Shown here: piece after piece, positions 17,979 to 30,229 of the stretch
How the letters are laid out: every line of letters starts with the position of its first letter
How positions within the stretch are numbered: the stretch's first letter is position 1
Assembly (NCBI GenBank): GCA_024648695.1
Contig: JACAVV010000033.1
Coordinates: 1 to 61,642 of the forward strand
DNA: 61,642 nt
Source of the DNA: Nitrospina sp.
GTDB lineage: Bacteria; Nitrospinota; Nitrospinia; Nitrospinales; JACRGP01
Direction of reading: 5' to 3'
Notes under the pieces: generated by a model
The model's database searches: none
What the model was told of the DNA's origin: nothing
The model's input: only the letters and a program-made list of their open reading frames with translations
Made by a program: the position numbers and the translations under genes

Positions 17979-18344
17979 TTAGGAAATGTTTCCGTTCGTG
18001 CCAACTGTAAAGGTATTGGAACTGGAGTTGTGCTTCGCCGTTCCAGAAAAGGCAGTTTCAGCCCCAGAACCTGTGATGCTGACTTCACCAGACTGGATAT
18101 AACCATAACTGGCTATTGCCGTAGCCACTGAACACGATTGTGTGGATTGTGTATCTGCCCACATGGCCTTACAAGCTAAATACAAATTGTGCAAGTTGGA
18201 CTTGGAATCGGAATCATATGCACGTTCTTTGTACTGGTTAAACTGAGGAATAGCAATTGCAGCCAAAATACCAATAATTGCGATAACGATCAAAAGTTCA
18301 ATCAGGGTAAAACCTTTTTCATTGCCAGAAATTCTTTTAAACAT
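17979..18344 (-). CDS. pilA: Type IVa major pilin, copy 1
   Basis: A prepilin with a short leader ([11 protein letters not shown]) cleaved by PilD between G11 and F12, and the canonical hydrophobic helix [20 protein letters not shown] with Glu5 of the mature protein. Cysteines C58 and C71 probably form a disulfide. The C-terminal half is Ser/Thr/Gly-rich ([21 protein letters not shown]). Mature aromatic positions F1, F24, Y27 and Y32 match those of short Geobacter-type pilins, but this protein is about twice as long. It differs from the second pilin by only four residues of 121. A near-perfect sigma-54 element lies 73 nt upstream. Confidence 0.95.
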
Positions 18345-20394: not shown

Positions 20395-20760
20395 TTATGA
20401 AATATTACCATTTGTTCCAACAGTAAAGGTATTAGCACTTGAATTGTGCTTCGCCGTTCCAGAAAAAGCCGTTTCAGAACCGGAACCTGTAATGCTGACT
20501 TCACCGGATTGAATATAACCATAACTGGCAATTGCCGTAGCTACGGTGCATGACTGCGTTGATTGTGTATCTGCCCACATCGCCTTGCAGGCCAGATACA
20601 AATTGTGCAAGTTAGACTTGGAATCGGAATCATACGCACGCTCTTTGTATTGATTAAACTGTGGAATAGCGATTGCCGCCAAAATTCCGATAATGGCGAT
20701 TACGATCAAGAGCTCAATCAAGGTAAAACCTTTTTCATTTTCAGAAATTCTTTTAAACAT
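20395..20760 (-). CDS. pilA: Type IVa major pilin, copy 2
   Basis: Near-duplicate of the pilin at 17979-18344: 117 of 121 residues identical, differing at position 7 (Glu for Gly), 72 (Thr for Ser), 95 (Ser for Ala) and 108 (Ala for Ser). Start ATG 20760 follows GAGGAG at a good distance; an in-frame upstream extension lacks support. Cleavage after G11, mature FTLIE start, Cys58/Cys71 pair. It has its own terminator and a sigma-54-like promoter, so it is a separate transcription unit. Which copy is the major subunit cannot be told from sequence. Confidence 0.95.
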
Positions 20761-20872
20761 CGTTGTTAGCTCCTCTAATAATAAAATATTTTGGTTAAGA
20801 CAAAAATGATCACCGAAACCAGCAAAAGTAACGACAAAAACGATCATCTGAAACAAAATTTTTATAATTTAA

Positions 20873-21085: not shown

Positions 21086-21463
21086 CTATTGAACCGTAAT
21101 ATTCCCTGCCGAATTCAATATAAAGGTATTCGGACTGATATTATGCTTTGCTGTCGCCACAAATGAGGTCTCTGACCCTGCAGACGTAATGCTTACTTCT
21201 GAAGACTGAACGTAACCATAAGAGGTGACGGCCGATGCTACATCGCATGGGGCGGTAGCCGTCCGGTCCATCCAAAATGCTTTACAAGAGGCATACAGGT
21301 TGTGTAAATTTGTTTTAGTGTCCCCATCGTAGGTCCGCGTTTTATATGTAGAAAATTGTGGCAGGGCAATGGCTGTCAAAATTCCTATAATAGCCATCAC
21401 TATCAAAAGCTCAATCAGGCTAAACCCTTCTGACGACTCAAGTTTTGATTTGCTTGTTGGCAT
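21086..21463 (-). CDS. Type IVa pilin-like protein, copy 3
   Basis: A third prepilin, 125 aa, more diverged: leader MPTSKSKLESSEG cleaved before F14 (FSLIELLIVMAIIGILTAIA, Thr2 replaced by Ser). It keeps the NLHNLY motif, the two cysteines (SCKAFW and APCDVA), SYGYVQSSEVSIT and TAKHN of the other two pilins, so all three are one local family. No sigma-54 element or good SD is visible upstream. It could be a minor pilin or an alternative subunit. It is transcribed divergently from nadD. Confidence 0.9.
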   Translation of the reverse strand: MPTSKSKLESSEGFSLIELLIVMAIIGILTAIALPQFSTYKTRTYDGDTKTNLHNLYASCKAFWMDRTATAPCDVASAVTSYGYVQSSEVSITSAGSETSFVATAKHNISPNTFILNSAGNITVQ

Positions 21464-25462: not shown

Positions 25463-26806
25463 TCATAAAGGTGGCGGTGGTTCCTTGAATCCTTTTTTTC
25501 TTCGGTCCCGTTTGCTTTTGGTTTTTTCTTTTTGAAGTTTACGCCATTGATAGGGGTCTTCTTTTTTAAGATCGACCGTTTCCTCAAGAAATGTTTGGCC
25601 ACTGATTTTTTTGGGAACTTTATTAGCACTCGTTTTTTTGGGTATTTTGGATTCCCATTTTTTCTTTTCTTCAAATTCCTTTCGGGTTAGGCCTGATTCC
25701 ATTTCAACCAGATTTTTTAATGCGCCGGAGTTTTTGCGCGAATATAGACATTCAGCGCGCAGTTTCATCTCTTTAAAATTGACCAATCCCGACTTCAAAC
25801 CCGGCGGAATTTTCGAAGCTCCCACAATGGCCCCCATCCATGCTCCCAGAATGGCTCCTGATTTATCAGCTTCTCTACCCAGTCCAGTCGCCTGAGCTAA
25901 CAAGCCAGAAAAAGTGTTTCCGGGTTTGAGCAGTAAACTGAGGGCAAATGGAAACAGAGTGAGGACATATTTTTGTACGGGATAACGTATTTCCGTATTA
26001 TAAAACGCTGATGCGTTTTCACATATCCAACCATCTATGTCAGGGAGGTTGTTTTTCAGACGTGAGGTCAATACCTTAAGAGTTCTGCTAAAAACGTTTT
26101 TCTCATTTGATTCGGTTTCTTTCCACATTCCATACGCATTTCTTTCAAACCATTGTTCGGCCAACTCACAGGTTTCAATCAATTCCGTCAATATTCTCTC
26201 GCTTTCCGATACAGCGATTCCCTTTTGAGGGTCCAGTTGTAAACATTGGGTAGTTACATAACCCGTAAGTAGCAAACCAATGGCTTCAAGTGGGTGGTGT
26301 GTCCATAATAAACCTGTTTCCAGATAGTCCGTCAATTGATTTCGTTTAAATTGCCGACAATATAATGCAATCGGAACGGCCAGGGTTGCGTAACTCAAGT
26401 CACAGCTCATGCGCCCCGAATCCAGCAAATGGCTTCGGTTTATTGAATCCGTCAAAGCCTGATTAAAGTCATGGTGACTGTGCCTGAACAGGCCGAAGTT
26501 TCCTTCAGGTCCTCCTTGCGCCAAAGTTCGCATGGATTCGAGGATGTGATCGCCGTCAGTTTTTTTTAATTGCAACAAACAATCGCTCACCACCAGAGCC
26601 CGTTGAGTCATGGCCCCATACAAACCTTTCATATGGTAGTGCTTCACCCCTTTTCCCAGGTACGGACGCACATCCTTATAATCATCCATCTTGCCAAAGC
26701 ATTGGGAAATAGTTGCAGGCTTCAATCCGCGCACACTTAAACCCAAAGCTTCACCAATGGCCAAACCCAACCAGCTTCCAGCAATTTTGTCTTTTAGGTC
26801 CAACAT
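25463..26806 (-). CDS. ADP-ribosylglycohydrolase-fold protein, active site degenerate
   Basis: All-helical DraG/ARH fold: the opening GSWLGLAIGEALGL (10-23) and the closing GLGREADKSGAILGAWMGAIVGA (308-330) are typical. The binuclear Mg ligands are altered: the family DDT motif aligns with Ala65-Met66-Thr67, and the C-terminal DxDT aligns with Glu312-Ala-Asp314-Lys315. Classical hydrolysis of ADP-ribose is therefore doubtful. A 100-residue Lys/Glu/Pro-rich tail (from about 345) follows and ends in PPPPL. The gene lies next to the MBL-fold hydrolase without a shared function being evident. It may act as a binding protein. Confidence 0.75.
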   Translation of the reverse strand: MLDLKDKIAGSWLGLAIGEALGLSVRGLKPATISQCFGKMDDYKDVRPYLGKGVKHYHMKGLYGAMTQRALVVSDCLLQLKKTDGDHILESMRTLAQGGPEGNFGLFRHSHHDFNQALTDSINRSHLLDSGRMSCDLSYATLAVPIALYCRQFKRNQLTDYLETGLLWTHHPLEAIGLLLTGYVTTQCLQLDPQKGIAVSESERILTELIETCELAEQWFERNAYGMWKETESNEKNVFSRTLKVLTSRLKNNLPDIDGWICENASAFYNTEIRYPVQKYVLTLFPFALSLLLKPGNTFSGLLAQATGLGREADKSGAILGAWMGAIVGASKIPPGLKSGLVNFKEMKLRAECLYSRKNSGALKNLVEMESGLTRKEFEEKKKWESKIPKKTSANKVPKKISGQTFLEETVDLKKEDPYQWRKLQKEKTKSKRDRRKKGFKEPPPPL

Positions 26807-26822: not shown

Positions 26823-27590
26823 TCAGTAAAGAGGTACCAGGGGTGTTGCTTCGTCCTGGCGAGCCAGAATCAACTTGGCGGGAAATGGCTTTAATTCTTC
26901 TGAGGCCGTCATTTTAGCAAGCTCAGGAAGGTTGCATTTTTGGCTGAGGTGCATCAATACAACCCATTGCAGTCCGCTATGTCCCACGGCCCCCAAGAGA
27001 TCGGCACAAGCCTCGTTGGAAAGATGGCCGGTATTACTTTTAATCCTTTGCTTCAAGGGCCAGGGATAGGGACCTGCGTCCAACATGGTAAGGTCATGAT
27101 TGGATTCCACCAGCAAAGCGTCAGCGCCTTGCAATTTTTCTTTCACGAGCGGAGTCACGCATCCCAAATCTGTGGCATGTCCCAATTTGTACCCATTGCT
27201 TCGAACCACGAAAGCCACCGATTCCTCCGCATCATGGGGAGTGGAGTAAGGCTCAACTGTCAGGTCACCCAGACAAAGAGAATCCTCCGCAACAATGGAC
27301 TTCCATTCCGTCAGATTGCCGCATTGTTTTTCGATTTTACGGTAGGTACCCTGAGTGGAATAAACGGGGATTTTATATTTCCGGGAAATCGGACCCACTC
27401 CTGAAATATGATCGGAATGTTCATGCGTGAGAAAAATAGCCTGCAAACGACCGGGGTCGACTCCAATAGCGCGCAAACGATGGCTCATTTTTCTTTCGCT
27501 CAGCCCGGCATCGATCAATATTGCCTGATCGCCAGTTTCAATGTATATACAATTGCCGGCGCTACCGCTCGACAAAACAGAAAATCTCAG
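26823..27590 (-). CDS. MBL-fold metal-dependent hydrolase, WalJ/YycJ-like, probable CTG start
   Basis: A metallo-beta-lactamase-fold hydrolase with the metal motif THEHSDH, later ligand positions in STPHDAEES, GHATDLG and ESNHD, and HLSQKCNLP, as in the YycJ/WalJ group (related to 5'-exonucleases linked to DNA-repair fidelity). The usual N-terminus MRFSVLSSGSxGN is present as LRFSVLSSGSAGN, beginning with CTG at 27590 and preceded by AGGAG at 8 nt. No ATG, GTG or TTG occurs upstream in frame; the TTG at 27575 would cut off the first strand. Confidence 0.8.
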   Translation of the reverse strand: MRFSVLSSGSAGNCIYIETGDQAILIDAGLSERKMSHRLRAIGVDPGRLQAIFLTHEHSDHISGVGPISRKYKIPVYSTQGTYRKIEKQCGNLTEWKSIVAEDSLCLGDLTVEPYSTPHDAEESVAFVVRSNGYKLGHATDLGCVTPLVKEKLQGADALLVESNHDLTMLDAGPYPWPLKQRIKSNTGHLSNEACADLLGAVGHSGLQWVVLMHLSQKCNLPELAKMTASEELKPFPAKLILARQDEATPLVPLY

Positions 27591-27708: not shown

Positions 27709-28500
27709 TCAGGGTTTGGGAATGATTACAATCTGGTCTTCAGCGAAACGTTTGAAACATTGGCTTTCATCGAATTTTACGACGGACTTTTCAAATGCTT
27801 TATCGATGCGTAGCCAGCGGTCGCATATATCCTCTGAAAGGCCTTCTTCTTCCAAACATTTTTTAAGAAGGGAGTATCGAATTTGAAAGATTTCTTCCGA
27901 AACAAATAAGTGGCGGTGCGCTTTCAAGGGTGAAGTGCCGTTATATTTCAAATCACCTCCCATGTTTTGACCCATAAAATGGGTGACCTGTTGAACCAGT
28001 TTTTCGCCATCCACATTCTTGAAAAAACCCTTCAGCCAATCATGCTCCATCAACTTGCTATATAGATTTTTATGAACCCGGTCAAGAGTCTCGGAGCCGC
28101 CTACAAATTCGAAAAAGGACGGTTGAATTTCTTGACCCTCATTAACCCTGGATTTCAGAGAGCCTCCATGAACCAAATACAAAGCATCCATTAAATAGGA
28201 ATCATTGATCGCAATAAAACGGCAGGCCACCTTATATTGAAACGGAGAGTCAAAAGCATTTTCCTTTTCACGGTCGATACACCGAACAACCTCAGCGGGG
28301 ACTTCATTCTCTCCCACCCCTTCGGCACCCGGGAATATGACAAACAATCCCATTCCACCAGGGAGTTCGACTTCTGTATTGAAAGCTAAACCTTCAACAG
28401 TCAAATCAACAATATCCGCCAGGGCCAAAACCTGATCCCTGCCGTAGGCAATCGATATGGGTTGCTCCAGTTGCACTCTGGGGAATCTTCTTTTATCCAA
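27709..28500 (-). CDS. PilZ domain fused to a truncated hemoglobin
   Basis: Residues 3-115 form a PilZ domain: the basic RRFPR motif (4-8) and a second motif DLTVEGLAF (32-40, Thr for the usual Ser in DxSxxG), together able to bind cyclic di-GMP. Residues about 127-235 read as a group-1-type 2/2 hemoglobin: FFEFVGGSETLDRVHKNLYSKL (helix A/B), LKGFFKNVD, FMGQNMGGDLKYNG, and LKAHRHLFVSEEIF, where H195 aligns with the proximal heme histidine. A 28-residue tail follows. No membrane segment. The start is TTG after AAAGGA. It may couple a gas or redox signal on heme to c-di-GMP; inference from domains. Confidence 0.75.
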   Translation of the reverse strand: MDKRRFPRVQLEQPISIAYGRDQVLALADIVDLTVEGLAFNTEVELPGGMGLFVIFPGAEGVGENEVPAEVVRCIDREKENAFDSPFQYKVACRFIAINDSYLMDALYLVHGGSLKSRVNEGQEIQPSFFEFVGGSETLDRVHKNLYSKLMEHDWLKGFFKNVDGEKLVQQVTHFMGQNMGGDLKYNGTSPLKAHRHLFVSEEIFQIRYSLLKKCLEEEGLSEDICDRWLRIDKAFEKSVVKFDESQCFKRFAEDQIVIIPKP

Positions 28501-28579
28501 TCTGTTTTCATCCTTTCAATTCAGGGTAAAACTCTATCAACATTTTTTAAAATGGGTCGACCGTTTCAGCAACATTTCA

Positions 28580-30067
28580 CTAATCATCGATTTGGGCTTT
28601 TTGAAGTTTCCCACTGTAATCGACGTAAACGGTTTTCCATTCCGTATAAGTATCCAGAGCCGCGGTTCCCATCTCCCGGTGACCGTTTCCCGTTCCTTTA
28701 GTTCCACCAAAAGGCAATTGGATTTCAGCTCCAATGGTAGAGGAATTTATATAGGTGATTCCTGTATCCAGATCCTCAATAGCCTCAAAAGCTTTGTTCA
28801 CATCAGCCGTAAAAACGGCTGAGGACAAACCAAAATCCGAGTCGTTTACAATTTCAATGGCATGATCAAGGTTATTGCAAGCAATTATGGATAGAACCGG
28901 ACCGAATATCTCTTCCTGCGCAATACGCATTTTTGGAGAAACTTCGGCAAACAAAGTGGGTTTAAAAAAATAACCGTTTTTGCAGGCTTTCCCGGTTTCA
29001 GGAGTGCCACCCGTCAGAAGCTTTCCTCCTTCCCGCTGGCCAATTTCACAATAATTACTAACCTTTTCCCTTTGCCCTTCATTCACCAGAGGCCCAACAT
29101 CGGTTTTGGGTTTCAATCCATCGCCACAGCGCATGGCCCGGGTTTTTTCCAATAAAATGTTTGTAAAATTTTTCAATATTTTTTTCTCGACGATCACCCG
29201 GGAACAAGCAGTACACCTTTGCCCTGTGGTCCCAAAAGCTCCCCATAAAACCGCCTCGGAGGCCAATTCCAGATCGGCATCGGCCAAAACTACAATCGCG
29301 TTTTTGCCCCCCATCTCCAGGGAATACTGTTTCATTTGACGGGCACAACGAACGGAAATATCGGCACCTGTATCCGTAGACCCAGTGAAAGAAACCAAAT
29401 CGACTCGAGGATCGTCTATTAAAGGAACTCCCGTTTGGCTTCCCGTACCCGTTACCAGATTTAAAACGCCGGGCGGCAAACCCGCCTTCTCAAACAACTC
29501 CACCAACCTCAACGCAGAAAGCGGCGTGTCGCTTGCAGGTTTTAGAACGACGGTATTCCCACAAATCAGTGCAGGAACAAGTTTCCACGAAGGAATGGCT
29601 AATGGAAAATTCCAGGGCGTTACGGCGGCCACAACTCCCACGGGCATGCGTACCGACATAGCAAACTTGGCAGGCAACTCAGAGGGAACGGTTTCTCCAA
29701 ACATACGCCTTCCTTCCCCGGCGCCATAATAAGCGGTATCGATTCCTTCCTGAACATCCCCCAGAGTTTCTTTGAGGACCTTTCCCATTTCCCGCGTCAT
29801 ATCTTCTGCCAGCGGCTTTTTATTTTTTACCAGCATTTCAGCCACTTTAAATATTATCTCGCCTCGTTTGGGAGCAGGCGTTTTACGCCACATTTTTTGA
29901 GCTTCTTTGGCCGCGCTCACCGCACGATCAACATCCTCCTTCCGGGAAAGCTGAAAACGTCCAAGTTCCTCATTAAAATTGGCTGGATTAGTATTTGAAA
30001 AAACTTCACCGCTAGAAGCTTTCTCCCAAACACCATTGATGTAGTTTTTAAAGACCTTGGTAGCCAT
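28580..30067 (-). CDS. NAD(P)-dependent aldehyde dehydrogenase
   Basis: ALDH-superfamily enzyme of about 495 aa from ATG 30067. Catalytic residues are in place: N153 (TPWNFPLA), E251 (LEMGGKN) and C285 (GQRCTAC), with the Rossmann FTGSTDTG. The closing [27 protein letters not shown] resembles members acting on semialdehydes such as succinate or aminoadipate semialdehyde. The substrate cannot be fixed from sequence. It stands alone, with a consensus-like promoter about 160 nt upstream and a long leader. Confidence 0.85.
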
Positions 30068-30229
30068 AATACCGACCCGCATTTTTAATTTTAATTTTTT
30101 TGTGGTTCCCAGACGCAAAGTTTTAACTGCTTGGCTTTTAGCTTTAAAAAAGGACGTCTGGAGAGGGGCTTTTCCGGGTAAATCTAAAAGGACAAATCTA
30201 ACATAAATTCAGTTAGATACCTTACTTGA

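Follow-up and report, generated by a model that had tools for sequence, protein, structure and literature searches.

A single reading frame of 263 residues on the minus strand (28500..27709) of the window, by which we mean the whole 61,642-nucleotide stretch of DNA analysed here, joins an N-terminal PilZ domain to a C-terminal truncated globin (Table 1). The fusion is the rare state of this association, the widespread state being a pair of adjacent PilZ and globin genes that is conserved across the order. Because relatives keep both parts as neighbouring genes, the arrangement suggests that this lineage wires an O2- or NO-binding protein directly into motility and attachment signalling.

Domain architecture of the fusion protein

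The initial annotation, made from the sequence alone, had read a PilZ domain and a 2/2 globin in one frame without stating the strand, and the analysis confirms that frame. Its 5' limit is set by an in-frame TGA (28518-28516), and a promoter scan gave no candidate above chance. Besides PilZ and Bac_globin, no domain was found in the protein by the Pfam search, and the NCBIfam search returned no match.

Table 1. Positions of the fusion gene, its parts and its neighbours within the window
Feature	Position	Strand	Details and basis
PilZ-globin fusion gene	27709..28500	-	263 aa; TTG start 28500, stop 27711-27709; fused orthologues in G001, G003
Probable ribosome-binding site, AAAGGA	28511..28516	-	10 nt before TTG; sequence
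PilZ domain, residues 2-100	28201..28497	-	Pfam PF07238, 30.4 bits; Foldseek 4xrn, 5y6g
R4-R-F-P-R8, RxxxR c-di-GMP motif	28477..28491	-	R4, R8 in 20/20 relatives
D32-L-T-V-E-G37, (D/N)x(S/T)xxG c-di-GMP motif	28390..28407	-	Conservation in relatives, Alg44 alignment
Linker, residues 112-127	28120..28167	-	Least confident part of the model; G001 and G003 have a shorter one
Group-1 2/2 (truncated) globin domain, residues 128-223	27832..28119	-	Pfam PF01152, 33.1 bits
Tyr147, B10 position of distal pocket	28060..28062	-	20/20; aligned with Tyr25 of Tetrahymena trHb
Val172, E11 position	27985..27987	-	Alignment with relatives
His195, F8 proximal heme ligand position	27916..27918	-	20/20 relatives; aligns with F8 His of truncated hemoglobins
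C-terminal extension, residues 224-263 (W229, R-I-D, C248, ...PKP)	27712..27831	-	Conserved in relatives
Aldehyde dehydrogenase, upstream neighbour	28580..30118	-	Pfam PF00171; synteny
Metallo-beta-lactamase-fold hydrolase, downstream neighbour	26823..27575	-	Pfam PF12706; synteny
ADP-ribosylglycohydrolase-like gene, next in shared order	25463..26806	-	Pfam PF03747; synteny

The N-terminal half exceeds the gathering cut-off of PF07238 (22.5 bits), as do the fused and split relatives, and matches the PilZ domains 4xrn, 5y6g and 4i86 in Foldseek, including c-di-GMP-bound Alg44 and YcgR. The motifs on which the PilZ assignment had first been based, RRFPR and DLTVEGLAF, are borne out by the Pfam match and are kept, apart from one substitution, in the residue-conservation alignment, which comprises 20 relatives of roughly 40-53% identity; a loss of these motifs in homologues, the outcome that would have spoken against the assignment, is not seen. 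Within this alignment the second motif carries D or N in 20/20, T or S in 20/20 and G in 19/20 relatives, with the Val also kept. R4-R-F-P-R8 aligns with QRQFAR and D32-L-T-V-E-G37 with DLSAGG of Alg44, the PilZ domain of which has been solved in structure with c-di-GMP. Cys74 of the PilZ half is likewise invariant among the relatives. According to Pfam, the PilZ domain begins at residue 2 with no YcgR-type N-terminal domain before it, which sets the protein apart from YcgR-type flagellar brakes. An assignment to the atypical, motif-less PilZ proteins of type IV pili was ruled out, since both c-di-GMP motifs are present.

The C-terminal half is clearly predicted to fold as a group-1 2/2 globin. 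It scores above the gathering cut-off of PF01152 (21 bits), so that the failure of a profile search to recover a globin, envisaged at the outset, did not occur. A PDB sequence search with the fusion protein matched truncated hemoglobins only, group 1 first, and Foldseek aligns the C-terminal half with the group-1 truncated hemoglobins 1dlw (TM 0.94 of target) and 8ugz (0.92), the rmsd of the globin-half model to PDB truncated hemoglobins of the 2/2 fold being 1.2-1.3. His195, the candidate proximal histidine of the initial annotation, was correctly chosen and occupies the F8 position. The Gly-Gly motif (G181-G182), W155 and W229 are invariant or almost so among the 20 relatives, and H143 is as conserved as the heme ligand positions. 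The E11 position is Gln in 18/20 relatives, including all aligned split orthologues, whereas the present protein has Val172 and the two other fusions have Leu, such that E11 is apolar in the three fused proteins only.

A close alternative had initially been that the globin half is a diverged helical domain without heme. The part concerning the fold is disfavoured by the clear group-1 2/2 globin; the part concerning the cofactor survives in an improbable reading, in which the globin half would be a heme-free adaptor that docks PilZ onto a chemosensory array or another partner. Heme binding by the globin half is predicted from sequence and model, and the conservation of H143, W155, W229, C248 and the C-terminal extension, which equals that of the heme ligands, would fit an interaction surface. 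Yet the F8 His, B10 Tyr and Gly-Gly motif are kept over 20 relatives, whereas a heme-free globin would be expected to lose its proximal His.

The C-terminal extension lies mostly outside the matched truncated hemoglobin structures. Its Cys248, which is invariant (20/20) and located beyond the Pfam globin match, could in principle act as a thiol or redox switch, alone or together with heme. We regard such a sensor as quite improbable, given that the alignment of relatives reveals no second invariant cysteine in the globin half, and that a pair formed with C74 of PilZ would need the two residues to meet across domains.

The AlphaFold2 model, built from 39 aligned sequences, has a mean pLDDT of 87 and a pTM of 0.73 and is weakest in the linker, around residues 111-120. 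Owing to this low linker confidence, the model establishes no interface between the PilZ and globin halves.

Fused and split pairs in Nitrospinota

The search for the same fusion in related genomes, proposed in the initial annotation, recovered it in two further genomes of the same family (G001 and G003). Including the present gene, the fusion is found in three genomes, whereas 21 other Nitrospinota genomes carry a split pair, PilZ then globin, adjacent and on the same strand, these counts leaving out four globins at contig edges and two broken globin frames (L029 and L030, which are fragmented and look like frameshifts). The split proteins are about 110-128 aa (PilZ) and about 140 aa (globin) in length. 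Their genes are mostly spaced by -11 to +22 nt, with one pair separated by 72 nt and one having an uncertain start, and the 11-nt overlap recurs in seven loci. Genomes of the same order that match the full protein mostly encode it as two adjacent genes, and beyond this order the phylum yielded no match to it. Two Nitrospina-type genomes have another, diverged PilZ gene immediately 3' of the PilZ-globin pair (L046 5663-6971 and L073 3598-4925, both plus strand).

In the globin tree, the three fusions group in a single clade (support 100/98) with a long stem, which shows that the fusion had a single origin; the split gene of another genome of the same family (G004) is placed near this clade, without strong support. 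Between G001 and G003, dN/dS is about 0.25 and similar over both halves, indicating that PilZ and globin are both maintained. An assembly artefact was rejected, the fusion being present in two independent further genomes and all three forming one clade. More generally, a fusion devoid of functional meaning, arising by assembly error or by chance joining of unrelated genes, might be entertained because the gene is the sole copy in its source genome and a relative in the same family is split. This we consider hardly credible in view of the three genomes in one clade, the purifying selection on both halves and the linkage of the split genes across an order. The split pair and the fusion constitute a Rosetta-stone pair.

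The position occupied by the pair in relatives is taken by the fusion within a common gene order, namely aldehyde dehydrogenase, PilZ/globin, metallo-beta-lactamase-fold hydrolase and ADP-ribosylglycohydrolase. Among relatives, the split pair also stays together in several other, unrelated gene neighbourhoods, and this retention of the pair while its surroundings change is the strongest evidence that PilZ and globin may function jointly. A phage or mobile origin was rejected, since no relative was found in viral contigs and the gene sits in a conserved order. We note that in Nitrospina-type genomes the pair comes after genes for ATP-citrate-lyase-like subunits (L039 3273-6952, plus strand); ATP-citrate lyase serves carbon fixation via the reductive TCA cycle.

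Cellular context and chemosensory company

The fused gene is surrounded by housekeeping genes and does not lie within a motility operon. The window does contain pilM/O/P and secretin genes for type IV pilus assembly, and their abundance had been offered as an argument for a link to motility or adhesion. This argument is weak, as pilM-Q lie several kb away and relatives keep the pair at places without pilus genes. Three type IV prepilin-like genes are also present in the window (17979-18344, 20395-20856 and 21086-21463), the first two of which are almost the same through most of the sequence that was read; a gene for a hydrophobic protein of 525 aa separates the prepilin-like genes.

The source genome encodes 16 GGDEF domains, two CheA-type kinases and FliG; together with the pilus genes, these make c-di-GMP signalling and two motility machines available as partners. 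With 16 GGDEF domains, c-di-GMP is likely to be available as a ligand for the PilZ half. One ordinary second truncated hemoglobin accompanies the fusion in this genome, in which neither a CheA-globin nor an MCP-globin protein was found.

In other phyla, this group of globins is associated with genes for chemosensory (Che) proteins. A globin-profile scan of GTDB genomes yielded 59 loci in Nitrospinota, Nitrospirota, Bdellovibrionota, Myxococcota and Pseudomonadota. The Bdellovibrionota orthologues adjoin CheA or MCP genes: several Bacteriovoracaceae have the globin gene flanked by an MCP-PAS gene on one side and a Rec-Hpt-CheA gene on the other, and one further genome has a globin gene overlapping the end of a CheA gene. 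The order MCP, globin, CheA recurs in Bacteriovoracaceae-type genomes (L090 2712-7151, L100 1-3868, L097, L172, L173 and L179), some of these loci showing one neighbour only before the stretch ends. In addition, Nitrospinales contain more distant paralogues of the globin, with the F8 His kept, inside CheA or after an MCP signalling domain. In the former (L051 1068-3764, minus strand; L053 1159-3768, plus strand; L054 1788-4457, minus strand; from genomes G013, G046 and G042), the truncated globin is inserted between the Hpt and dimerisation domains, roughly at the expected position of the P2 domain, and our literature search found no paper on a CheA with a built-in truncated globin. In the latter (L052 2824-6360, minus strand; L056 1842-5351, plus strand; L060 1648-2508, minus strand), it forms the C-terminus of the MCP. 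The gene for a globin-PAS protein lies beside CheW domains resembling the C-terminal part of CheA in the phylum that was searched starting from a Nitrospira locus; in this phylum, L163 (365-1348, plus strand) encodes a fusion of a 3/3 globin (PF00042) and a truncated globin (PF01152). Two truncated globins stand in tandem within one 360-aa frame at L166 (1165-2244, plus strand).

The pairing with PilZ is far more restricted. Among 36 other loci outside Nitrospinota, inspected over flanks of up to 4 kb, PilZ adjoins the globin at L086 only, although beyond L086 the flanks were searched by a motif scan that a diverged PilZ could escape. At L086 (2077-3032, plus strand) PilZ directly follows the globin, reversing the Nitrospinota order, and this linkage is apparently independent of that in Nitrospinota; the only related genome with this globin does not show it. 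Neither the 396 genomes from the phylum of a Nitrospira locus nor the 369 from that of a Bacteriovoracaceae locus gave any match to the PilZ part.

Proposed role and relation to known systems

We put at about even the chance that the fusion couples heme-based sensing of O2/NO to a c-di-GMP receptor acting on motility or attachment, a proposal for which we infer heme binding, c-di-GMP binding, complex formation, the direction of signalling and the target. The 2/2 globin would bind heme through His195 and accept O2 and/or NO, TyrB10 being on the distal side, while the PilZ barrel would bind c-di-GMP through R4xxxR8 and D32-L-T-V-E-G37. The ligand state of the heme may alter the contact between the two halves and thereby shift the affinity of PilZ for c-di-GMP or for a protein target, enabling the fusion protein to read gas level and c-di-GMP together. 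The chemosensory array, the flagellar motor or the type IV pilus would be the likely targets. In most relatives, the PilZ protein and the globin, encoded by adjacent genes, would form a complex in the same role, the genes having been fused in this family.

The globin may instead be an enzyme gated by c-di-GMP, with PilZ switching an NO dioxygenase or a nitrite- or O2-chemistry, for example upon attachment. Such an enzyme would be in keeping with the retention of TyrB10 and GlnE11 by the split orthologues and with general knowledge: NO dioxygenase activity is established for group-1 truncated hemoglobins, M. tuberculosis HbN being an example, Nitrospinota are a phylum known for nitrite oxidation, and PilZ domains can switch an attached activity allosterically, as in BcsA. 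A stand-alone globin beside PilZ could be equally compatible with an enzyme, which counts against the sensor. The placement of the fused gene outside any motility operon and the lack of CheA-globin and MCP-globin proteins in its genome weigh in the same direction. We nevertheless judge the gated enzyme unlikely, as the fused proteins have Val or Leu in place of GlnE11, their globins stand on a long stem, the neighbourhood comparison found no reductase gene adjoining the PilZ-globin loci, and relatives of the globin occur in Che operons and within Che proteins. It is this chemosensory company, together with the fused proteins having lost Gln E11, that leads us to favour sensing over turnover; that the fused clade has a long stem and drops Gln E11 yet keeps the heme-ligand His is likewise counted for the sensor.

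More broadly, and with somewhat less than even confidence, we suggest a class of 2/2-globin sensors in which one globin group is wired into c-di-GMP receptors (as a PilZ pair or fusion in Nitrospinota) or into chemosensory arrays (within CheA, at the ends of MCPs or in MCP-globin-CheA operons), with O2/NO and c-di-GMP jointly steering motility or attachment. To our knowledge, gas sensors of the globin type have so far been described with 3/3 globins, and truncated hemoglobins are treated mainly as enzymes acting on NO or O2. If the sensor proposal is true, truncated hemoglobins would gain a signalling role, through a PilZ pairing kept across an order of Nitrospinota, and there would be a hint as to how members of this nitrite-oxidising phylum link the level of gas with attachment and movement.

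The initial annotation knew of no characterised protein with this architecture, consistent with our search of the open-access literature, which found no paper on a pairing of PilZ with a truncated hemoglobin. Among the closest parallels are the globin-coupled sensors, such as HemAT, the globin-coupled diguanylate cyclases and GCS-HD-GYP, which likewise combine a heme globin with a signalling domain and in some cases act on c-di-GMP (PMC5549716, PMC10882959, PMC13401364). These sensors belong to the 3/3 globins (PMC7082302). They carry an N-terminal 3/3 globin and synthesise or degrade c-di-GMP or signal via MCPs, whereas in the present protein the globin is C-terminal, of the 2/2 group-1 type, and has a c-di-GMP receptor domain as its partner; membership in the 3/3 sensor-globin lineage is ruled out by Pfam and Foldseek, the globin being C-terminal and 2/2. 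With the group-1 truncated hemoglobins (HbN, GlbN and those of Tetrahymena and Shewanella) it shares the fold, the F8 His, the B10 Tyr and the Gly-Gly motif, but differs in the fused or paired PilZ, the C-terminal extension and, in the fused proteins, the apolar E11. With single-domain PilZ receptors and the PilZ of Alg44 it has in common the beta barrel and the RxxxR and (D/N)x(S/T)xxG motifs, but has Thr for the canonical Ser in the second motif and a globin attached. The multidomain truncated hemoglobins of Hade et al. 2017, as cited in PMC7082302, similarly have 2/2 globins fused to other domains, but the partners named in PMC7082302, protein kinase and nitrate reductase, differ from PilZ. 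Finally, the PilZ aerotaxis receptors Tlp1 and Aer of Azospirillum brasilense also unite oxygen behaviour and c-di-GMP in one protein, but are chemoreceptors for which no globin is described, Tlp1 being without a typical oxygen-sensing domain (PMC13401364).
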